Below, piece after piece: positions 4,543 through 64,000 of a stretch of DNA of 64,000 nucleotides. Numbering within the stretch: the first letter of the stretch is position 1; every line of letters begins with the position of its first letter. Source of the DNA: Halorhodospira halophila (lineage in GTDB: Bacteria; Pseudomonadota; Gammaproteobacteria; Nitrococcales; Halorhodospiraceae); contig NZ_NHSN01000025.1 of NCBI RefSeq assembly GCF_016653405.1, positions 124,001 through 188,000 of the forward strand. Direction: 5' to 3'. The notes beneath the pieces were generated by a model. It was not told the DNA's origin, did not search any database, and saw only the letters and a list, made by a program, of their open reading frames with translations. A program made the translations under genes and the position numbers.

Positions 4543-5625
4543 GTGAACCAACCGGAGTGGCTCGATGAACCGATCCAACAGACCCATCCGCATTACGCCC
4601 AGCAGGCGCGGGCTCGACAGGATCAGCTGACCAAGCCGCCGGGATCGCTCGGCCGGCTCGAAGAGATCGCCATCCAGCTCGCCGGGCTTCAGCAGACCCC
4701 GCACCCCGCCGTGGATCCGGTCCAGATCACGCTGTTCGCCGGCGACCACGGCATCGCCGAGGACGGCGTCTCCGCCTTCGACCCGGTGGTCACGCTGCAG
4801 ATGATGGAGAACTTCTCCAACGGCGGCGCAGCCATCTGCGTGATGAGCGAGGAGATCGGCGCCCAGCTGGAGGTGGTGGATGTCGGCACCCGATGGCAGG
4901 GCGCGGTGCCGCAGGCGGTGCGCGACGAACGCATCGCCGCCGGCACGGCCAACATGCGCCGGCAGCCGGCGATGACCGACGAGCAGTTCAGCGCTGCGCT
5001 CACCGCCGGCGCGCGGGCCGTCGACCGGTCCATCGATCAGCACGGCACCCGGGTCTTTATCGCCGGCGAGATGGGCATCGCCAACACCACTGCGGCCGCC
5101 GCCGTGGTCGGCGCCCTGCTCAACAAACCGGCGCCGGGGCTAGTCGGCCCAGGCACCGGACACGATGCCGCCGGGCTGCGACACAAGGCGGAGGCCGTCG
5201 ACGAGACCCTGGCCCTGCACCGAGAACAGCTCGGCGGACCGGCAAACCTCAGCGAGCCGTGGCAAGCCGGTCGTCGCGTGGGCGGCCTGGAGCTGGCCGC
5301 CATGACCGGTGCCTACATCCGCTGCGCCCAGCGCGGTGTGGTCATCCTCCTCGACGGCTTCATCAGCGGCGCAGCCGCCCTGCTGGCCGAGCGACTGCGC
5401 CCCGGCACCCGCGCCTGGATGATCCTCGGCCACGGCTCCGCCGAGCCGGGTCACCACCGCATCGTCGCGGCCCTCGGCGGGCGCCCGCTGCTCGACTTCA
5501 ACATGCGCCTGGGCGAGGGCAGCGGCGCTGCGACCGCGATACCGCTGATGCGCATGGCCTGCGCCATCCACAACCGCATGGCCACCTTCGCGGAGGCCGG
5601 CGTAACCCCGGAGGGCAAAGGGTGA
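4543..5625 (+). CDS. cobT: Nicotinate-nucleotide--dimethylbenzimidazole phosphoribosyltransferase
   Basis: A 360-residue enzyme that activates the lower ligand by converting dimethylbenzimidazole and nicotinate mononucleotide to alpha-ribazole phosphate. Family motifs include KPPGSLGRLE near the N-terminus, FAGDHGIAEDGVSAF, and LGEGSGAATA near the C-terminus, which holds the catalytic Glu. The GTG at 4543 is preferred because AGGAG lies seven bases upstream; an ATG at 4528 would add five residues but has a badly spaced site. The stop codon overlaps the GTG start of cobC by four bases, indicating translational coupling. Confidence 0.94.
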   Translation: MNQPEWLDEPIQQTHPHYAQQARARQDQLTKPPGSLGRLEEIAIQLAGLQQTPHPAVDPVQITLFAGDHGIAEDGVSAFDPVVTLQMMENFSNGGAAICVMSEEIGAQLEVVDVGTRWQGAVPQAVRDERIAAGTANMRRQPAMTDEQFSAALTAGARAVDRSIDQHGTRVFIAGEMGIANTTAAAAVVGALLNKPAPGLVGPGTGHDAAGLRHKAEAVDETLALHREQLGGPANLSEPWQAGRRVGGLELAAMTGAYIRCAQRGVVILLDGFISGAAALLAERLRPGTRAWMILGHGSAEPGHHRIVAALGGRPLLDFNMRLGEGSGAATAIPLMRMACAIHNRMATFAEAGVTPEGKG

Positions 5626-6251
5626 GACCCCCCATCGAAGGCCAGGAGACCTGGATCGATCTGATCCGCCACGGCGAGCCGGTGGGCGGCCGCCGCTACC
5701 GCGGCACCCAGGACGACCCGCTCAGCGAACGCGGCTGGGCGCAGATGCGCGCCGCCCCGCTCGAGCCCGCGGCGTTGACCCGGATCGTCTGCTCCCCGCT
5801 GCGCCGCTGCCGCGAGTTCTCCGAACGCTACGCCGCCGAGCAGGGGCTGCCATTACAGGTGGAAAACGGTTTCCAAGAGATCGGCTTCGGTGACTGGGAG
5901 GGCCTGACCCCGGCGGAGCTCTACGAGCAGGACCCCCAGGGGCAGGCCCGCTTCTGGGCCGATCCGCTCCACTATACGCCGCCCAACGCCGAGCCCATGG
6001 CCGACTTCCAGCGCCGCGTCATCGATGCCTGGGTGCGGCTGCTCGCAGAGCACCCCGGCGAGCACCTGCTGCTCGTCGGCCACGGCGGGCTGATCCGCGT
6101 GGTGCTGTCGCACCTGCTGGAGCTCCCGCTGCGCGGGTTCAACCGACTCTACGTGCCCTACGCCTCGGTCAGCCGGGTCCGTGTCGAGCCCGGCACCGAT
6201 CCGACCCTCTACTTCCATAACCGCGCAACATCGGCGGAGGGGGAGCGATGA
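5622..6251 (+). CDS. cobC: Alpha-ribazole phosphatase (histidine phosphatase family)
   Basis: A 209-residue member of the phosphoglycerate-mutase-like superfamily. LIRHGEP near residue 15 contains the phosphorylated His; SPLRRC and LLVGHGGLIRV provide the second Arg and second His of the active site. In this operon the likely role is dephosphorylating alpha-ribazole phosphate, or the adenosylcobalamin phosphate made by CobS. The GTG start lies in a GTGA overlap with the cobT stop, and the stop overlaps the cobS ATG in an ATGA. The phosphatase family is certain; the substrate rests on context. Confidence 0.9.
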   Translation: MRPPIEGQETWIDLIRHGEPVGGRRYRGTQDDPLSERGWAQMRAAPLEPAALTRIVCSPLRRCREFSERYAAEQGLPLQVENGFQEIGFGDWEGLTPAELYEQDPQGQARFWADPLHYTPPNAEPMADFQRRVIDAWVRLLAEHPGEHLLLVGHGGLIRVVLSHLLELPLRGFNRLYVPYASVSRVRVEPGTDPTLYFHNRATSAEGER

Positions 6252-7000
6252 CCGCCTTGCGACCGCTGCTGATCGCCATCGCCTTTCTCACGCGCCTTCC
6301 GGTGCCTTCGCTCGGCCGCATCGACGACGAGGAGAGTGGCGCCTCGCTGGTCGCCTACCCCCTGGTCGGGGCGATCATCGGCACCCTGCTGATTCTGATG
6401 GCCTTCCTGACCCAAGCTTTGCCTGCACTGCTCACTGCAGCCCTGGTAGTGGTGATCTGGGCGCTGCTGACCGGCGCATTGCACCTCGACGGCCTGGCCG
6501 ACTCCGCCGACGCCTGGGTCGGCGGCATGGCGCAGCGGGAACGCACCCTGGAAATCATGAAGGATCCTTCCTGCGGGCCCATCGGGGTCACGGCGATCGT
6601 CGCCGTCCTCCTGCTCAAGGTGGCAGCGGTGGCCGCCCTGCTCGACGCCGGCGCCGTACTGGCCATCGCCACAGCGGCGGTTGTCGGACGCGCCGGGCTG
6701 ACCCTGCTGTTCCTGACCACACCCTATGTGCGCCCCGGCGGGATCGGCGAGGCCCTGTCCCACTTCGGGCCACCCGGCGCCTCGCTGGGCAGTGCGGCCG
6801 TAGTCACCGCCCTGGCCGCCCTGCTCACCGGATGGGCCGGGCTGGCGGCGGTGGCCGCCGGGGCAGTCGCCCTGGTCTTGGCGCAGCACGCGATGTCACG
6901 GCGCCTCGGCGGGACCACCGGCGACACCGCCGGCGCCACCGTGGAGCTCACCGAGACCGCCGCACTGCTTGGCGCCGCCGCCGTGGCGGCGAGCGTCTAG
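6248..7000 (+). CDS. cobS: Adenosylcobinamide-GDP ribazoletransferase (cobalamin synthase)
   Basis: A 250-residue integral membrane enzyme joining adenosylcobinamide-GDP to alpha-ribazole (phosphate), the last assembly step of cobalamin. The signature GALHLDGLADSADAW and the following ERTLEIMKDP with conserved acidic residues lie around residues 75-105, which binds Mg2+ in the family. The rest is a series of Ala/Leu/Val-rich membrane helices. It is coupled to cobC by an ATGA overlap, and cbiB starts nine bases after its stop. Confidence 0.94.
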   Translation: MTALRPLLIAIAFLTRLPVPSLGRIDDEESGASLVAYPLVGAIIGTLLILMAFLTQALPALLTAALVVVIWALLTGALHLDGLADSADAWVGGMAQRERTLEIMKDPSCGPIGVTAIVAVLLLKVAAVAALLDAGAVLAIATAAVVGRAGLTLLFLTTPYVRPGGIGEALSHFGPPGASLGSAAVVTALAALLTGWAGLAAVAAGAVALVLAQHAMSRRLGGTTGDTAGATVELTETAALLGAAAVAASV

Positions 7001-55326: not shown

Positions 55327-57618
55327 TTACGGACGGCTGACGTCGTAGCGGGCCTTGCCCTGATCCTCGTCGAAGAGGACCTCGATTTCCTTCTCGGGCA
55401 CGGTGCTCATCTCACACTTGTAGCAGGTGAACCACATCATGTAGATACCGATCACCCACCACAGCAGCTGCCAGACCCAGATGGACGGCAGGCCGAAGAA
55501 CCACCAGGTATCGGGGTTGGTCGGATCGCCGAAGACCCAGTTGCCCAGCAGGGCGCCCGGACCGAAGGCGAAGATCCACCAGCCGATGACGATGGTGAAG
55601 GCGATCGGGATCAGGTGACGCTTCTCGGCCGGCAGCGACGCATGCTCACGCAGGAAGGCGTGCACCGTCATGCGGTGATCGTAGTCTTCCTTGTTGTTCT
55701 GCGTCATTGCCGAGACGATCACGGCCACCAGGGCGTTGAGCACCAGGCCCCACCCAGCCGAGTGGATGGTCAGCGGCCAACGACCCCAGGGCACGTCGAC
55801 GCCCATCGCCGCCAGCAGGTCGATGCCGAGGTTCTCGGTCATCAGCACGGCGATGATGCCCACGCTCAGGCCCCAGACGACACCCGGACGGGTGAGCCAG
55901 GGGAAGAAGCAGATGGCTGCCAGGGGCACCCACATCTGCGTACCCATCGCGGTGGCCAGACCGCCGAGCAGCACCAGGGCGTCGGTGGTCACCGTTGCCA
56001 CGGTCAATGCTGCAAGCACCAGGATGGTGACGAAGATCCGCCCCGCCACGACCTGGGTCTGGTTGCTGGCGTTCGGCATGATGTAGCGACGCAGCAGGTC
56101 ACGGGTGAACATGCCACTGGTGGTGGACATGTACGCCGCACCGGTGGACTGCATGGCCGCCAAGGCACAGACCGCCAGCAGGGCCGCCAACCAGGGCGCT
56201 GCCGCCTCCAGCATATTCAGCAGCTGGGGCACCAGCTCGCTGTCACCGCCCCGATCCAGGGACAGGTCCAGCCAGGCCCGCTCGAGATCCCCCGGCAGGG
56301 CTGCCAGCCAGTCCGGATCCATGTTGCGCGGATCCTCACCAATGGACAGCGCCGCCAGACCGGCCGCAATGACCTGCTCGACCTCCTGACGGTTCAGCTC
56401 GGGGTGCTCGGCCTGGATCATGCCACGCTGCATGACCGCCGAGGGCACCAGCGGGCTGAGGTTCATGCCGTCCAGGGACTCACCGGCATCGAGGCGCTGG
56501 CGCACCTCGTCGACTAGCCCCCGGTGTTCCGCACCCGGCTCGAACAGCGTCCGGTACTCGGCCAGCTCCTCGCCGTACTGGTCGGAGAAGATGTCCTTGG
56601 CGAACTCGGTGTTGCCGCCCAGGCCGTGGGTGGCCATTGCCTGGATCGCCAGGAACGTGAACATCAGGGCACCGACGCCCAGCGGGGACATCCAGGTCTG
56701 CTGCGGCGCAAACGGCCGCGGGTTCTGGTTGGAGAACGCCCACATGGTGAACGAGGGCGAAGCCATGATGCCGCCCAGCGCCAGCATGTAGGTGATGTTC
56801 ATCACGCCGGTCCAGACGCCGCCCTGGGCATTGGCCGCGGCACCGACCCACTGGATGGCACCCGGGATGGCGACGTAGCCGCTGGCACCGGAATCACCCG
56901 GGACCATGCCCGGCGAGATCTCCCCAGCACCGCCGGTGGCCGTCTCCCACTCGACGAGGCCGGCAATCACGTGCGTGAAGTTGTTCCAGCCGCCGATGTA
57001 GTAGAGCGCCACGATGCCGATGACGAAGATACCCGCCATGAGCAGCACGGCCTGCGCCGCATCCACGTACGCCACGGCACGCAGACCGCCCGAGGCCACG
57101 TAGAAAAGCACCACCGCGGACAGCAGCCACATGCCGATCTCGACGCCCATCCAGCCGTCGGTGAGCACGTGGAACAGGAAGCCCGAAGCGCGCAGCTGGA
57201 TCCCCAGGTACGGCACCGCAAAGATCAGCGCCACGATGAGGATCAGGATGCGGATCGAGTCCGTCCGGAAGTAGTCCGCGAACATCTCGCCCGGCGTGAC
57301 GTAGCCCCAGCGCTTGCCGATCATCCATTGGCGCTTGAGGAACAGCATGCCGGTAAACGGGATGCAGATGGAGTAGAACGAGGCGTAGGCGTACTGCAGG
57401 CCGGCCTCGTAGATCAGGCCCGGGTGGCCCACGAACGTCCATCCCGAGAAGGACGTGGCCGTCGCCGCCAGTATGAAGACCCACATACTGACGGAACGCC
57501 CAGCCACGAAGTAGTCGCTGGCTGTGCGCGACCAGAGGTATCCCTTGATACCCCAGAAGATGCAGTAGCCCCAGTACAGGCCTACAAACACCAACAGCCA
57601 TATGGCCATAGCTGACAT
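55327..57618 (-). CDS. Sodium:solute symporter (SSS) family transporter with a large hydrophilic insertion
   Basis: A 763-residue symporter. The core motifs are SASDYFVAGRS-like TASDYFVAGRSVSMW near residue 35, TATSFSGWTFVG and GGLRAVAYVDAAQAVLL. About 150 hydrophilic, acid-rich residues (roughly 340-495) are inserted between central membrane segments, making it much longer than ActP or PutP (about 500-590). The ATG at 57618 follows GGGGGAGACG. Divergence from the DUF294 gene and nearness to acs suggest uptake of acetate or another small organic acid; this is inferred from context. Confidence 0.85.
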   Translation of the reverse strand: MSAMAIWLLVFVGLYWGYCIFWGIKGYLWSRTASDYFVAGRSVSMWVFILAATATSFSGWTFVGHPGLIYEAGLQYAYASFYSICIPFTGMLFLKRQWMIGKRWGYVTPGEMFADYFRTDSIRILILIVALIFAVPYLGIQLRASGFLFHVLTDGWMGVEIGMWLLSAVVLFYVASGGLRAVAYVDAAQAVLLMAGIFVIGIVALYYIGGWNNFTHVIAGLVEWETATGGAGEISPGMVPGDSGASGYVAIPGAIQWVGAAANAQGGVWTGVMNITYMLALGGIMASPSFTMWAFSNQNPRPFAPQQTWMSPLGVGALMFTFLAIQAMATHGLGGNTEFAKDIFSDQYGEELAEYRTLFEPGAEHRGLVDEVRQRLDAGESLDGMNLSPLVPSAVMQRGMIQAEHPELNRQEVEQVIAAGLAALSIGEDPRNMDPDWLAALPGDLERAWLDLSLDRGGDSELVPQLLNMLEAAAPWLAALLAVCALAAMQSTGAAYMSTTSGMFTRDLLRRYIMPNASNQTQVVAGRIFVTILVLAALTVATVTTDALVLLGGLATAMGTQMWVPLAAICFFPWLTRPGVVWGLSVGIIAVLMTENLGIDLLAAMGVDVPWGRWPLTIHSAGWGLVLNALVAVIVSAMTQNNKEDYDHRMTVHAFLREHASLPAEKRHLIPIAFTIVIGWWIFAFGPGALLGNWVFGDPTNPDTWWFFGLPSIWVWQLLWWVIGIYMMWFTCYKCEMSTVPEKEIEVLFDEDQGKARYDVSRP

Positions 57619-57767
57619 TACGCGTCTCCCCCTCACATTTCTGGAGTTATGAGGTGTTGCACCCCCCACAGGGGGCGGCAAGCACCTAGCGAAAAACGTG
57701 CCACCCTTGCGTGGCCCGCTAACCCGCTGATGCACCTGGGCGCCGGTCCCGGCCTCCCCGCGCGGAC

Positions 57768-57895: not shown

Positions 57896-59818
57896 ATGGC
57901 CACCGGAGCGAACAGCCCCGGGGAACCGCACGTATCCGCCGACACGCTGGATATCCGCCGCCTGGCCGAGAACGAGGTCTTCCGCAACCTCGACGACGGG
58001 GTCCTGCGTGCCCTGCTCGGCCGGGGCAGCGTCCACCACCTGGACAGTGGCGAGGTGCTCTTCCACCTCGGCGACCCGGACCGGGATACGCTCTTTATCC
58101 TCTACGAGGGGCGCGTGGAACTGCGCGACGCGCACAACGTGGTCACCGTGCGCGAGCCGGTGACCCTGCTCGGGCTGTCAAGCTACTTCGACGACGAGCC
58201 CTACACCCTCACCGCCCTCGCCACCCGGCCGACGCTGGTCGTCGGCGTCCCCTTCGAGGACGTGCGCACCCTCGAACGCGAGCACCCGGCGCTGGCCGAC
58301 ACCCTGAGCCGCATCATCGCCGACCGGATCCGCGCCAACTCCTGGCAGCACCGCGGCAGCCCCACTGGCGCCCTGTCGCAGCCGGCCCGCACCGCCATGT
58401 CCACGCCGCTGACCTACCAGCAGCCGGACTGCAGCCTCGCCGAGGCGTTCCGCTTCATGGACGAGCGCCAGATCGGCAGCATCGGCGTGCTCGACGAGGC
58501 TGGTGGACTGGTGGGCCTGGCCACGCTGCGCACCATCGGCCGGGCCATCTTCACCCGCGGACTCAGCCCGGACGCCTCCATCGTCGAGGCCGCCGAGCGG
58601 ATCACCGCCATCGGTCCGGAAACGCCACTGTCCGAGGCCAAGGACATCCAGGCGCGGGAGAACGTCAAGTACCTGGTGGTCATGGACGGCACGCGCCCGG
58701 TGGGCATGCTCTCGCAGTCGAACATGCTGCAGGCGATCATGGCGCAGCAGACGGTCATGCGCGAGCGCACCAACCGAGCCACCAGCATGGCGGAGCTGCG
58801 CCAACTGGCCGGCGAGGTGGGCTACGTCGCCCGCGAGGCCTGGAACAACAACCGCGAGGCGAGCCGCGCCACCTACCTGCTCAGCGAATTCCACCTGCAG
58901 CTCCAGCGCCGCTGCATCGACCTCGTCCTCGACGAACTCCACGGCGAGGGATGGGGCGAGGCCCCGCGCCCCTACGCCCTGCTCGTGCTCGGCTCGCTGG
59001 CCCGCCGCGAGGCACTGATCAACCCGGATCAGGACAACGCCATGATCATCGGGGACTACCCCCGCGGCAGCAGCGAGCCCCGCCCCCTGGACGAGACCGA
59101 GGCGGAGTGGTTCGCCAACTTCGCCGAGCGGGTCAACGTCCGCCTCGACGAGCTCGGCTACGAGTGGTGCAAGGGCGATATCATGGCCCGCAACCCGGAG
59201 TACCGCCACGCGCTGGAGCGTTGGCGGCAGCAGTTGCGCTACATCGCCCGGCACCCGAACAGCACCTCGGCCCGGTGGAGCAACATCTTTCTGGATTTCG
59301 AACTCCTCTACGGTGAGCAGGGGCTGGTCACCGAGCTCTGGGATTTCGTCCTCGCCACCCTGCAGGAGCAGCCCAAACTGCTGCGCTTCATGACCGGCGA
59401 CGACGCCGAGGGGCAGCCGGCCGTGGGGCTGTTCAACCGCCTGATCCGCTCGCGCCGCTCCGACAATGGTCACGGCTGCGTCGATATCAAGCGCAAGGGC
59501 CTGCGCATCATCGCCAACGGCGCGCGCATCTACGCACTCTCCGCCAACGTGCGGGAGACCAACACCGTCGCCCGGCTCAAGGGCCTGCGCCGCGAGGGTG
59601 TGCTCACCAGCGAGATGGTCGACTCGGTCCTGACCGCCCACGAGGAACTGCTCGACCTGCTGCTGACCCACCAGATCGAGCAGCATCAGGCGGGGCAGAT
59701 TCCGGACAAGTACATCGACCCCGAGGAGCTGGACGACCTGACCCGGCAGTCCCTGGCGACGAGCATGAAAGCGGTCAAGCGCTTCCAGGACCGCGTACAA
59801 GGCGTCTTCGGCCTTTAG
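57896..59818 (+). CDS. cNMP-binding/CBS/DUF294 nucleotidyltransferase-like protein
   Basis: A 640-residue soluble protein. Residues about 20-145 form a cyclic-nucleotide-binding-like barrel (LDSGEVLFHLGDPDRDTLFILYEGRVEL), 165-290 a CBS pair (FMDERQIGSIGVLDEAGGLVG and VKYLVVMDGTRPVGMLSQSNML), and 310-640 the DUF294 nucleotidyltransferase region with LGSLARREALINPDQDNAMI, the family's Gly-Ser and Asp pair. Such proteins accompany acs-symporter-CrbS clusters; their target is unknown, and they may transfer nucleotides to a protein in response to adenine nucleotides. The ATG follows AGGAGAAG. A hairpin terminates the gene. Confidence 0.9.
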   Translation: MATGANSPGEPHVSADTLDIRRLAENEVFRNLDDGVLRALLGRGSVHHLDSGEVLFHLGDPDRDTLFILYEGRVELRDAHNVVTVREPVTLLGLSSYFDDEPYTLTALATRPTLVVGVPFEDVRTLEREHPALADTLSRIIADRIRANSWQHRGSPTGALSQPARTAMSTPLTYQQPDCSLAEAFRFMDERQIGSIGVLDEAGGLVGLATLRTIGRAIFTRGLSPDASIVEAAERITAIGPETPLSEAKDIQARENVKYLVVMDGTRPVGMLSQSNMLQAIMAQQTVMRERTNRATSMAELRQLAGEVGYVAREAWNNNREASRATYLLSEFHLQLQRRCIDLVLDELHGEGWGEAPRPYALLVLGSLARREALINPDQDNAMIIGDYPRGSSEPRPLDETEAEWFANFAERVNVRLDELGYEWCKGDIMARNPEYRHALERWRQQLRYIARHPNSTSARWSNIFLDFELLYGEQGLVTELWDFVLATLQEQPKLLRFMTGDDAEGQPAVGLFNRLIRSRRSDNGHGCVDIKRKGLRIIANGARIYALSANVRETNTVARLKGLRREGVLTSEMVDSVLTAHEELLDLLLTHQIEQHQAGQIPDKYIDPEELDDLTRQSLATSMKAVKRFQDRVQGVFGL

Positions 59819-59828
59819 AATAGGGCGC

Positions 59829-59857
59829 TCGCCGGGGGGGCAGCACGCCCCCGGCGA
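59829..59857 (+). terminator. Hairpin after the DUF294 gene
   Basis: TCGCCGGGGG and CCCCCGGCGA form a perfect 10-bp stem with a nine-base loop, 10 bases after the stop. There is no T-tract. It overlaps the earliest possible ATG of the receiver gene (59857), which argues for the downstream start of that gene. Confidence 0.6.
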
Positions 59858-59898: not shown

Positions 59899-60276
59899 AT
59901 GAGCCAAGAGATCCTGATCGTGGACGATGAGGACAACATCGTCTTGTCCCTGGAGTTCCTGATGAAGCAGGCCGGTTTCGAGGTACGCACCGCCCAGGAC
60001 GGCGAGCAGGCCCTCGAGGCCCTCGAGGCGCGCATCCCGGACCTGGTGCTGCTCGACGTGATGATGCCCCGCAAGGACGGCTACGAGGTCTGTCAGGAGA
60101 TTCGCCAGCGCGCCGAGTGGGCGCACCTGCCGGTGGTCATGCTCACCGCCAAGGGCCGTGACGTGGAGCGCGAGAAGGGGCTGGCCATGGGCGCGGACGA
60201 CTACATCACCAAGCCGTTCTCGACCCAGGAAGTGGTGGAGACGGTCCAGCACATCCTGGCCAACGGGGCGCAGTGA
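59899..60276 (+). CDS. Single-domain response regulator receiver protein
   Basis: A 125-residue CheY-like protein with no output domain. Acidic pocket DDE at 9-11, phosphoacceptor Asp53 in [16 protein letters not shown], Thr in MLTAKGRD and Lys in YITKPFS are all intact. The ATG at 59899 gives the normal N-terminus ([11 protein letters not shown]). Its stop overlaps the start of the exonuclease/kinase-like gene, so the two are coupled. Likely phosphodonors are the nearby CrbS- or CbrA-type kinases, since its direct neighbour lacks the kinase His. Confidence 0.9.
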
Positions 60277-62399
60277 TGGCCAGCGCCATGGCTCGCCGCC
60301 GGCTGAAGTTCTGGGCACCGGCACTGTTCCTGCTCCTGCTGATCGCCGCTGCGCTGGCCACCGTCGGTTACTTGACCCTGGGCCACGTCCCCGAGGGCCC
60401 GGAGCGCGCCAACGCGCTGCTCGCCTTCGGGGCCGCCGGCGCCGTGCTCATGGGGGCCACCGTAGCCATCTGGATCCTCCTCGACGCCGCGGTGATCCGC
60501 CCTCTGGGTGCCCTGGCCCGCGGCGCATCGATCATGGCCCACTCCAATCCGGCCCACGAGCTGGAGATCCCGAGCATGCACCTGCTCGGCGAACTCCCGG
60601 AGAGCTTGCAGACCCTCGGCAGCAATCTCTACGAGAGCCGCCGCGAGGTGGCCAAGGCGCTGGGCTCCGGCGCGCAGGGGGCGGAGAACCAGAAAACGCG
60701 CCTGGAGATCGTCCTGCGCGAAATCCAGCAGGGTGTGATCGTTTGCGACACCGAGGGGCGGATCCTGCTCTACAACCCGGCCGCCGGGGAGATCCTGCGC
60801 AACGACGCCCTGGGCCTCGGGCGCTCGATCTACGATGTGCTGGCCCGCTCGGCGGTGGACCACACCCTGGAGATGCTCCAGCACCGGCTGGCCATCGCCG
60901 AGGACCACACGGTCGCCGAAAACCGGGCCGAGTTCGTCTGCGCAACGGTAGACGACGGTGCCCTGCTGCACTGCCGGATGAGCCTGCTGCCCTCCTCCAG
61001 CCCGCTGCGCTCCGGATTCGTGCTGACCCTGGAGGACATCACCCGCAAGATCGAGGGGGTGGCACGACGTGACCACGCCCTGCGCAGCGCCGTCGAATCG
61101 CTGCGCGCACCGCTGGCGAACCTGCGCGCCGCCGCCGAGAGCCTCGGGCAGGGCGACGAGGCCATGGCCCGCGAGCAGCGGCAGTCCTTCGAGGCCATGA
61201 TGGTCCACGAGAGCCGCGAGCTGAGCCGGCGCTTCGAGCGCATGGCCCGGGAAACCCACCGCCTGGTCTCCGCCCCATGGACGATGGCGGACATCAGCAG
61301 CGCCGATCTCTTCGCCAGTGTGCTGCGCCGCCATCCCGAGGGGCTGCCCCGGGTGGAGGTGGTCGGCATTCCGCTCTGGATGCACGCCGAGAGCCACTCC
61401 ATCGGCCTGGTGCTGGAGCACCTGCTGCGCCACCTGCGCGGCGACCTGGGCATCGAGTCGGTCCGGGCCGAGCCGCTCATGGGCGACCAGCGGGTCTATC
61501 TGGATCTCTCCTGGACGGGGGCACCGATCCCGCCGGAGAAGCTCGAGGGGTGGCTCGACGAGGAGTTGCCCGAGGCCACCGGACAGCTGACACCGCGTGG
61601 CGTCCTGGAGCGCCACGACAGCGTGGCCTGGAGCCAGACCCAGCCGCGTTGTGAAGACCGCGCGGTACTCCGCATCCCCGTGCCGGTGTCGCGGCGCCAG
61701 TGGGAGCAACCGGGCGAGCGGCTGCCGCCGCGGCCGGAGTTCTACGACTTCTCGCTGGCCGACCAGGCCGCCGACCAGGGCGAGCTGCTCGACCGTCCTC
61801 TGGCCCAGCTCTCCTTCGTGATCTTCGACACCGAGACCACGGGCCTGGCCCCTTCGGAGGGCGACGAGATCATCTCCATCGCCGGGGTGCGCATGGTCAA
61901 CGGCCGCATCCTCGAGGGCGAATGCTTCGAGCAGCTGGTCAACCCGGGCCGGCCCATCCCCAAGGCGTCGATCAAGTTCCACGGCATCCGCGATGAGATG
62001 GTCGCCGACAAGCCCGGGATCACCACGGTCCTGCCGCAGTTCAGTGCCTTCGTCGGCGACTCGGTACTGGTCGCCCACAATGCGGCGTTCGACATGAAGT
62101 TCATCCGCCTTAAGGAGGAGCAGTGCGGCCTGAGGTTCGAGAACCCGGTGCTCGACACCCTGCTGCTTTCGGTCTTCCTGCACGACCACACCCCCGAGCA
62201 CACCCTAGAGGCCATCGCCAACCGGCTGGGGGTGGAGATCAGCGGCCGCCACACCGCGCTGGGCGATACCCTGGTCACCGGCGAGATCTTCGCGCAGATG
62301 CTACCCCTGCTCGAGGAGCGCGGCGTCACCACCCTGCGCGAGGCCATCAACGCCTCCGAACAGATGATCGAGGTCCGCAAGCAGCAGGCTCAGTTCTGA
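60276..62399 (+). CDS. Membrane sensor-like protein fused to a DnaQ-type 3'-5' exonuclease
   Basis: A 707-residue protein. Two membrane segments (about 10-30 and 45-65) lead to a HAMP-like linker and a PAS domain (about 140-245, [29 protein letters not shown]). A histidine-kinase-like core follows, but the His of the H-box is Glu274 ([15 protein letters not shown]) and the ATP-site motifs are degraded ([10 protein letters not shown] where DxGxGIP is expected). Residues about 514-690 are a DEDDh exonuclease with FDTETTG (Asp518, Glu520), [12 protein letters not shown] and [14 protein letters not shown] intact. Vibrio acs clusters carry a DnaQ-like gene at this place. Start is the ATG overlapping the receiver stop. 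Confidence 0.88.
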
Positions 62400-62400
62400 C

Positions 62401-62598
62401 GTGACGGAACGGCGCAGCGAGCGACTCACCGCCCTGGCCCTGCTCGGGGTGGTGCTGTTTAACTACCCGGTGCTATCGCTGTTCGCGGTGGACGGCAAGG
62501 TGCTCGGGGTGCCGGTGCTCTACGCCTACTTCTTCACCGTCTGGGCCGGACTGATCGCGGCCGTCGCCCGGCTCAACCGGGCGGCCGCACGGGGGTGA
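62401..62598 (+). CDS. Small membrane protein preceding the CrbS-like kinase
   Basis: A 65-residue protein from a GTG start one base after the previous stop. Two hydrophobic segments (about 9-28 and 35-57) and a basic C-terminus (RLNRAAARG) are visible. It overlaps the next gene in a GTGA. The placement before an SSS-domain kinase parallels the 63-residue protein before cbrA. It may be a small subunit for the symporter domain, as DUF4212 proteins are for other SSS carriers; this is inferred from position and size. Confidence 0.7.
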   Translation: MTERRSERLTALALLGVVLFNYPVLSLFAVDGKVLGVPVLYAYFFTVWAGLIAAVARLNRAAARG

Positions 62599-64000
62599 GC
62601 GCCGTGCTGCCGGCCTGGACCATTCTGCTGGTCTCGGCCCTTTACGTCGGGCTGCTCTTCGCCGTCGCCTATACGGCGGACAAGCTCGGCGACCGCGGCC
62701 TGTCGCTGGTCAACAACCCGTACGTCTACACCCTTTCCATCGCCGTCTACTGCACGGCCTGGACCTTCTACGGCAGCGTCGGGCTGGCCGCTGAACACGG
62801 GCTGGCCTTTCTGACCATTTACCTCGGCCCCACCCTGATGGCCATCGTCTGGTGGGTGGTGTTGCGCAAGATCGTGCGCATCAGCAAGCTCTACCGGCTG
62901 ACCTCCATCGCCGACTTCATCGCCGCCCGCTACGGCAAGAGCATGCTGCTCGGCGGCCTGGCGGCGTTCATCGCCCTGGTGGGCACCACCCCGTACATCG
63001 CCCTGCAGCTGCAGGCCGTCTCATCGAGTTTCGACGTGCTGCTGCACTTCCCCGACATGGAGGCGGTCCAGGCGGGCAGCGCCGGCCTCCTCGACGACAA
63101 GGCGCTCTACGTAGCGGTCCTCCTGGCGCTGTTCACCATCCTCTTCGGCACGCGCCACATCGACGCCACCGAGCGCCTGGAGGGCATGGTGGTGGCCGTG
63201 GCCTTCGAGTCGGTGGTCAAACTCATCGCCTTCCTGGCGGTGGGGATCTTCGTCACCTTCGTTCTCTTCGCGGGTCCGGTGGAGCTCTTCCGCGAGGCAG
63301 CGGCCACCCCGGCCATCCAGGAACTCGGGCTGCTCACCGGGCTGCCCGGCGGCTACCAGAGCTGGATCGCCATGCTGGCGCTGTCAGCCCTGGCCATTCT
63401 CTTCCTGCCGCGGCAGTGGCAAGTGAGCTTAGTGGAGAACGTCAACGAGGATCATATTCGCACGGCCTCCTGGCTGTTCCCCCTCTATCTGCTGGTTATC
63501 AACCTGTTCGTCCTGCCGGTGACACTCGCCGGTCTGCTGTTCTTCGGCGACGAGATCCCCGGGGACGACTACGTCCTCGCCCTACCCCTGGCGGTGGATC
63601 AGGGCCTGCTCGGGCTGCTGGTGTACATCGGCGGCTTCTCGGCGGCCACCGGCATGGTCATCGTCGCCACCATCGCCGTGGCCATCATGGTCAGCAACGA
63701 TATCGTCACCCCGGCCCTGCTGCGGCTGCGCCGCTTCCACGCCCGGGGCCGGCACGACCTGTCGAGGCTGATCGTCGCCATCCGACGCCTGGTGATCTGC
63801 GTCATCCTGGCGCTGGGCTATATCTACTACCTGCTCATCGCCGACACCCACGCCCTGGTCTCCATCGGGCTGATCTCCTTCGCCGCGGTGGCCCAGTTCG
63901 CGCCGGCGGTGCTGCTCGGGCTGTTCTGGAAGGGGGCGAGCCGGCGCGGGGCGCTGGCCGGGCTGGTGGCCGGCTTCCTGCTCTGGGTCTACACCCTGCT
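62595..64000 (+). CDS. crbS: SSS-type sensor kinase, CrbS-like, N-terminal part
   Basis: The frame is open to the window edge and gives about 468 residues, all within a sodium/solute-symporter domain of some 12 membrane segments. AVYCTAWTFYGSVGLAAEHGLAFLTIYLGPT, LTSIADFIAARYGKS and LPRQWQVSLVEN are the typical stretches of SSS-linked kinases. By order (acs, symporter, DUF294, exonuclease, kinase) it corresponds to CrbS of Vibrio, which governs acs. The kinase core and any receiver lie outside the window. Start is the GTG overlapping the small gene, or another GTG three codons later. Confidence 0.85.
   Translation, partial: MSAVLPAWTILLVSALYVGLLFAVAYTADKLGDRGLSLVNNPYVYTLSIAVYCTAWTFYGSVGLAAEHGLAFLTIYLGPTLMAIVWWVVLRKIVRISKLYRLTSIADFIAARYGKSMLLGGLAAFIALVGTTPYIALQLQAVSSSFDVLLHFPDMEAVQAGSAGLLDDKALYVAVLLALFTILFGTRHIDATERLEGMVVAVAFESVVKLIAFLAVGIFVTFVLFAGPVELFREAAATPAIQELGLLTGLPGGYQSWIAMLALSALAILFLPRQWQVSLVENVNEDHIRTASWLFPLYLLVINLFVLPVTLAGLLFFGDEIPGDDYVLALPLAVDQGLLGLLVYIGGFSAATGMVIVATIAVAIMVSNDIVTPALLRLRRFHARGRHDLSRLIVAIRRLVICVILALGYIYYLLIADTHALVSIGLISFAAVAQFAPAVLLGLFWKGASRRGALAGLVAGFLLWVYTL

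Follow-up and report, generated by a model that had tools for sequence, protein, structure and literature searches.

We describe a membrane protein of 707 amino acids, encoded on the forward strand at 60276–62399 of the window (the whole 64,000-nucleotide stretch of Halorhodospira halophila DNA that was analysed), in which Pfam, profile search and AlphaFold/Foldseek identify a PAS domain, a pseudo-histidine-kinase and a DEDDh exonuclease. The family to which it belongs is real and widespread among bacteria, consists of membrane proteins and has apparently not been described before. Patterns of sequence conservation across the family suggest that the dead kinase has been kept as a landing platform for the neighbouring receiver. 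By analogy, the best reading is that the novelty here would be DivL-like receiver sensing joined to a fused nuclease, in other words DivK–DivL logic with another output. Very few dead histidine kinases, DivL foremost among them, have been established as receiver sensors; if this reading is true, such sensing would extend to a protein with a fused enzyme, and the two-component pathway would have a nuclease as its direct output, without a transcription factor.

Layout of the protein and its kinase-like core

The open reading frame encodes 707 amino acids plus a stop, its coordinates check out, and its ATG (60276–60278) shares one base with the TGA (60274–60276) of the receiver gene. Hydrophobic sequence and the AlphaFold model indicate two predicted membrane helices joined by a very short loop (approximately residues 12–73; 60309–60494, + strand); the N-terminal helices span residues 2–35 and 42–89 in the model. 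Because only a few residues separate them, there is no space for a periplasmic sensor domain, and both termini of the protein are predicted from the topology and the model to be cytosolic. Pfam matches a PAS domain at residues 147–257 (60714–61046, + strand; PAS_4, above the cut-off) and RNase_T at residues 515–672 (61818–62291, + strand; E = 1e-38), with no match in between. PAS_4 is also matched in 58 of 59 homologues; within the PAS domain of the family, Cys157 and Tyr166 are nearly invariant and Asn167 is invariant. The original prediction of membrane segments and a PAS domain holds; the HAMP-like linker proposed alongside them was rejected, as Pfam matched HAMP in a single one of the 59 homologues (E = 0.05).

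Residues 240–510 are supported as having the DHp and CA fold of histidine kinases, as had been proposed. A profile of this region, built from 52 homologues and searched against solved structures, matches histidine kinases over DHp and CA (9m08, E = 4e-11), as well as the VicK-like 4i5s (E = 1e-8) and DivL (4q20, E = 9e-8). The AlphaFold models have a mean pLDDT of 85 for the whole protein and 83 for the 240–510 fragment. Foldseek aligns the whole-protein model with WalK over PAS–DHp–CA (E = 3e-18) and the fragment model alone with kinase cores that include DivL, the known His-less pseudokinase. Neither HisKA nor HATPase_c is matched by Pfam in the 707-residue protein; among the 59 homologues, HisKA is weakly matched in 20 (best E = 8e-4) and HATPase_c is recognised in one.

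The catalytic residues of this core are missing throughout the family. In the pseudo-DHp helices (residues 256–333; 61041–61274, + strand), delimited by homologue alignment, profile search and AlphaFold, the alignment places Glu274 (61095–61097, + strand) at the phosphoacceptor His site, within a recognisable H-box remnant. Glu occupies this position in 82 of 126 homologues, mostly Gln, Asp, Arg, Pro, Met or Val in the rest, and His in none, which bears out the His-to-Glu replacement noted originally. No normal H-box was seen at another alignment position among the homologues. His at position 270, present in 27 of 81 homologues and clade-specific, was rejected as an alternative H-box; its distance to the conserved Arg277 downstream is 7 residues instead of 3. 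The degenerate, ATPase-like CA region (residues 334–480; 61275–61715, + strand) was assigned by profile search, alignment and Foldseek. Here, homologue alignment puts Trp413 (61512–61514, + strand) at the site of the G1-box Asp, with Trp in 122 of 126 homologues; the G2 glycines are absent; and His447 (61614–61616, + strand) is retained in 124 of 126. The protein has the fold of catalytic sensor histidine kinases and lacks their H-box His and their N, G1 and G2 ATP-binding motifs. The loss of catalytic residues is common to the whole family and comes with a conserved set of replacements, so it does not reflect drift in one genome. The ATP-binding motifs had been described as eroded: their loss stands, but the conserved alternative set at the ATP site suggests retained function rather than decay.

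A conserved linker, RPEFYDF (residues 486–492; 61731–61751, + strand; homologue alignment), connects the kinase-like core to the exonuclease, and its R486 is kept in 124 of 126 homologues. In the exonuclease, the five DEDDh residues (D518, E520, D606, H659 and D664) are kept in 125–126 of the 126, in agreement with the intact motifs read originally, and Foldseek superposes the domain on the PolC exonuclease domain with an r.m.s.d. of 1.6 Å over 187 columns. With both the catalytic residues and the fold of the RNase_T/DnaQ superfamily, the domain is probably an active DEDDh 3′–5′ exonuclease. In a search for anti-phage defence systems, PADLOC matches only the generic DEDDh domain (residues 509–682) and the N-terminal cNMP-binding region of the DUF294 protein, and a defence role was set aside. 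Separately, a 724-residue open frame in a gammaproteobacterial genome (G486:C105:12309-12902) carries a DEDDh domain of intermediate score and may represent a different exonuclease fusion.

The gene cassette and its relatives

Directly upstream lies the gene for a single-domain response-regulator receiver of 125 amino acids with phosphoacceptor Asp53 (59899–60276, + strand; Pfam Response_reg, E = 3e-32). It is preceded by a gene for a 640-residue cNMP-binding–CBS–DUF294 nucleotidyltransferase-like protein (57896–59818, + strand; Pfam), which retains the nucleotidyltransferase motif GSLARRE...DQD. The 80-base gap between these two genes contains a GC-only inverted repeat at 59830–59856 (CGCCGGGGG, 9-base loop, CCCCCGGCG) with no T run after it. 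Downstream, an SLC5-type histidine kinase with an intact H-box (62595–64000, + strand; Pfam and sequence beyond the window) is cut by the window end, which is why only its symporter-like part was seen originally; the sequence of the same genome past the window gives a complete protein of 935 amino acids (L084:8595-11402). Its HisKA and HATPase_c domains are above Pfam cut-offs and its SSF score of 22.7 is just below the cut-off of 22.8, and it has the SLC5–HisKA–HATPase_c layout of the kinase of CrbS/R-type cassettes. It also contains LGPERSA, which resembles LGPx(x)A, the motif published for the STAC domain that separates SLC5 from the kinase core (PMC4834066), but is longer by one residue and matches no Pfam model. 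CrbR, the DNA-binding regulator that controls acs in CrbS/R-type systems, is absent from the cassette genes. The divergent neighbour is a sodium:solute symporter (55327–57735, − strand; Pfam SSF, E = 1e-28; open-reading-frame bounds, within which the true start may lie).

Fused homologues occur in 45 of the 399 genomes of a phylum-wide sample (about 11%). The family is found in alpha-, beta- and gammaproteobacteria and Magnetococcales, as well as in some metagenome-assembled genomes (MAGs) of Nitrospirota and Thermodesulfobacteriota. The open-access literature searched, outside which most subscription papers fall, contained no description of a kinase–exonuclease fusion of this kind. Gene order in the relatives is receiver–exonuclease–kinase or kinase–receiver–exonuclease, often with DUF294 and symporter genes near. 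The coupling to a receiver gene that was proposed for this one locus extends to the family: the receiver gene adjoins the exonuclease gene in 102 of 122 assessable loci, a count that takes in the window. The receiver phosphoacceptor Asp is kept in 101 of these 102, and the H-box His of a nearby SLC5-type kinase in 49 of 49. Plasmid 1 of Paracoccus denitrificans PD1222 carries the whole cassette as five consecutive genes (PDEN_RS25395 to RS25415) in the order DUF294, small ORF, kinase, receiver and pseudokinase–exonuclease.

Where the receiver is missing, the exonuclease is most often accompanied by DUF294, which lies within about 600 bases in 15 of the 20 such loci. Two further loci (L132 and L134) have stand-alone exonucleases near DUF294, so the membrane–PAS–pseudokinase part looks like a control module gained or lost by an exonuclease whose usual companion is DUF294. 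Some loci depart from the common arrangement. In L028 (2818-3234), the receiver phosphoacceptor Asp aligns to Gly beside a well-conserved pseudo-DHp, possibly a phosphorylation-independent variant or a MAG error. In two Candidatus Thiodiazotropha loci (L039 and L043) the cassette is rearranged, with the exonuclease preceded by a receiver and a kinase and followed by another receiver and DUF294.

Pseudo-DHp conservation and the adjacent receiver gene

A pseudo-DHp that serves for receiver binding would be expected to decay in loci that have lost the receiver gene. We gave every homologue a score for each of PAS, DHp, CA and exonuclease, using one profile per domain; the profiles came from a training set in which most members carry a receiver, and the PAS and exonuclease controls are subject to the same bias. 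Phylogenetic regression was carried out on 120 loci, many of them from MAGs and 20 without an adjacent receiver, leaving out L121 and the window itself; the tree was built from the exonuclease domain alone and is a quick one with many weak branches. We used regression because an independent-pairs sign test had too few independent changes: receiver adjacency changes only 6–10 times on the tree, and the sign test for co-loss of receiver and DHp gave the right direction without significance. L121 (exonuclease ORF 4654-6813) has a pseudo-DHp stretch of normal length whose sequence is unrelated and reads as if out of frame between two compensating indels.

Receiver adjacency, a proxy given that a receiver could act from elsewhere, was associated with an increase in DHp conservation of 21.7 ± 3.2 bits (p = 7e-10) and in CA conservation of 14.0 ± 3.4 bits, and with no difference in PAS (p = 0.17) or exonuclease (p = 0.35) across the 120 loci. 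In leave-out checks picked after the data were seen, the DHp effect was 17.8 ± 3.3 bits (p = 3e-7) without the six loci that have no detectable DHp, and 8.4 ± 3.0 bits (p = 0.005) with three further strong cases removed. The cleanest single case of DHp and receiver being lost together is that of L124 and L125, in which an in-frame gap removes about 70 residues of the DHp, the locus lacks a receiver gene and the DUF294 gene directly overlaps the exonuclease gene; both DHp and receiver are present in their sister genomes, L103 and L106. In four alphaproteobacteria with no detectable DHp (L126–L129), receivers elsewhere in the genome reach at best 41–43% identity to that of the window, compared with 56–67% in five receiver-bearing comparison genomes. 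There are exceptions in both directions: the DHp persists in L032, L034 and L036, where no receiver adjoins, and it has diverged strongly in L115–L120 and L122–L123, where the receiver is present. An analysis of covariation over 102 receiver–pseudokinase pairs (about 64 effective) showed no enrichment in the DHp and gave its highest values in the PAS.

Several features of a DivL-type receiver sensor are present: a kinase fold without the phosphoacceptor His, a PAS domain upstream and a genetic link to a single-domain receiver. Taken with the relationship between DHp conservation and receiver adjacency, the original proposal of receiver docking on the dead kinase gains comparative-genomic support. 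The same relationship weighs against the idea, to which the signal-gated design proposed originally corresponds, that the PAS domain alone gates the exonuclease in response to a ligand or redox state, with the dead kinase as a rigid transmission rod and the receiver at work elsewhere. The near-universal PAS match and its conserved Cys157, Tyr166 and Asn167 favour this account, as does retention of the PAS in L124–L129, which lost DHp and receiver. It leaves unexplained both the tracking of the receiver gene by DHp conservation and the tight pairing of receiver and exonuclease genes, and we consider it unlikely as the sole explanation, although PAS and receiver inputs may coexist. Another account is that the kinase core is a vestige, with a decaying middle, of a constitutively active exonuclease that is merely anchored to the membrane. 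Deletion or shortening of the DHp in several lineages with intact exonuclease motifs would fit, as would the stand-alone exonucleases beside DUF294; but Trp413, His447 and linker Arg486 are near-invariant over the 126 homologues, and DHp decay is in step with receiver loss rather than random, which makes a vestige quite unlikely.

A partner other than the receiver is also conceivable. RetS is reportedly a tuner of GacS through heterodimer formation, and the pseudokinase could in the same way heterodimerise with the SLC5-type kinase and tune it, leaving the exonuclease as a separate passenger activity. The frequent adjacency of the kinase favours this, as does the role of DHp domains in dimerisation. 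In the 98 loci where kinase adjacency could also be assessed, however, a regression with both labels retained the receiver effect (16.1 ± 4.3, p = 3e-4) and gave none for kinase adjacency (2.6 ± 3.5, p = 0.47), a result that favours receiver docking over a heterodimer; moreover, a DHp can still be recognised in 11 loci that have a receiver but lack an adjacent kinase, and it is well kept in nine of these. We therefore regard the heterodimer as very unlikely. Least credible, and in our view extremely improbable, is that the protein retains kinase activity through an unusual phosphoacceptor or ATP site. The His270 found in a third of the homologues surveyed at that position could suggest this, but that residue is clade-specific and does not fall in the H-box register. 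Position 274 is variable (E, Q, D, R, P, M, V), neither the G1 Asp nor the G2 glycines remain, and HATPase_c is recognised in a single one of the 59 homologues.

Proposed mechanism and closest known systems

On balance we lean towards receiver docking as part of the following pathway. The SLC5-type histidine kinase would sense a monocarboxylate, or its transport, and phosphorylate the single-domain receiver. The phosphorylated receiver would dock on the pseudo-DHp helices, as DivK~P does on DivL, and docking would alter the PAS–DHp–CA dimer. This change, relayed through the RPEFYDF linker, would turn the exonuclease up or down, and exonuclease and DUF294 nucleotidyltransferase together would adjust acetate or pyruvate use, most simply by RNA trimming. 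We infer the phosphotransfer, the docking, the gating and its direction, the signal and the substrate, and the choices of RNA as substrate and of the sensed signal are guesses. The original prediction had the nuclease gated by signal rather than by phosphorylation. This is probably wrong: the adjacent kinase is catalytically complete and the phosphoacceptors of receiver and kinase are almost without exception conserved, so phosphorylation most likely still drives the switch.

In a variant of receiver control that we find quite improbable, the DUF294 nucleotidyltransferase and the exonuclease would form a writer/eraser pair on a shared target, either RNA 3′ ends or a nucleotidylated protein, and the receiver, reporting on the monocarboxylate-transporter kinase, would control the eraser via the dead kinase. 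The output of a two-component system would then be reversible nucleotide tagging rather than transcription.

For the receiver-docking step, the closest known system is DivL–DivK of Caulobacter crescentus, which likewise combines a PAS–DHp–CA protein, a replaced phosphoacceptor His, a poor ATP site and a single-domain receiver partner. DivL has Tyr for His, binds ATP poorly, has no kinase or phosphatase activity and binds DivK~P through its receiver-docking face, with the PAS needed for phospho-specificity (PMC4211667, PMC5361649). The protein described here differs in having Glu rather than Tyr, and in its fused exonuclease, whereas DivL carries no fused enzyme and acts on another protein, the kinase CckA; receiver binding has been demonstrated for DivL and we infer it here.

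For the physiological context, the nearest parallels are in Pseudomonas. In P. putida, MxtR/ErdR (CrbS/R) targets the RNase_T protein PP_0353, which shares an operon with the CBS protein PP_0354; deletion of PP_0353 impairs growth on pyruvate and not on acetate, and mRNA decay was named by the authors of that study as one possibility (PMC9927547). The corresponding cluster of P. aeruginosa, PA3232–PA3235, includes ActP and is up-regulated on propionate (PMC9765439). These clusters share with ours an RNase_T exonuclease and a CBS protein, an acetate permease near in some species, and a CrbS/R-type system. PP_0353 has been described as an RNase_T protein only, with no membrane, PAS or pseudokinase part or adjacent receiver reported, and its presumed homology to our exonuclease rests on shared family, gene context and the look-alike loci L132 and L134. 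The pseudokinase–exonuclease may help to explain the role of PP_0353 in pyruvate use, which its discoverers left open.

The downstream kinase resembles the SLC5/STAC kinases CrbS (MxtR), CbrA and RpuS in its SLC5–HisKA–HATPase_c layout. Unlike in those systems, the receiver here is a separate, single-domain protein without a DNA-binding domain, and a pseudokinase–exonuclease belongs to the cassette. The exonuclease itself is like the DEDDh exonucleases of PolC and DnaQ (epsilon) in its fold and in all catalytic residues (2p1j, 9qpc, 1j53) but, rather than being part of a polymerase, it is tethered to the membrane behind a signalling module.
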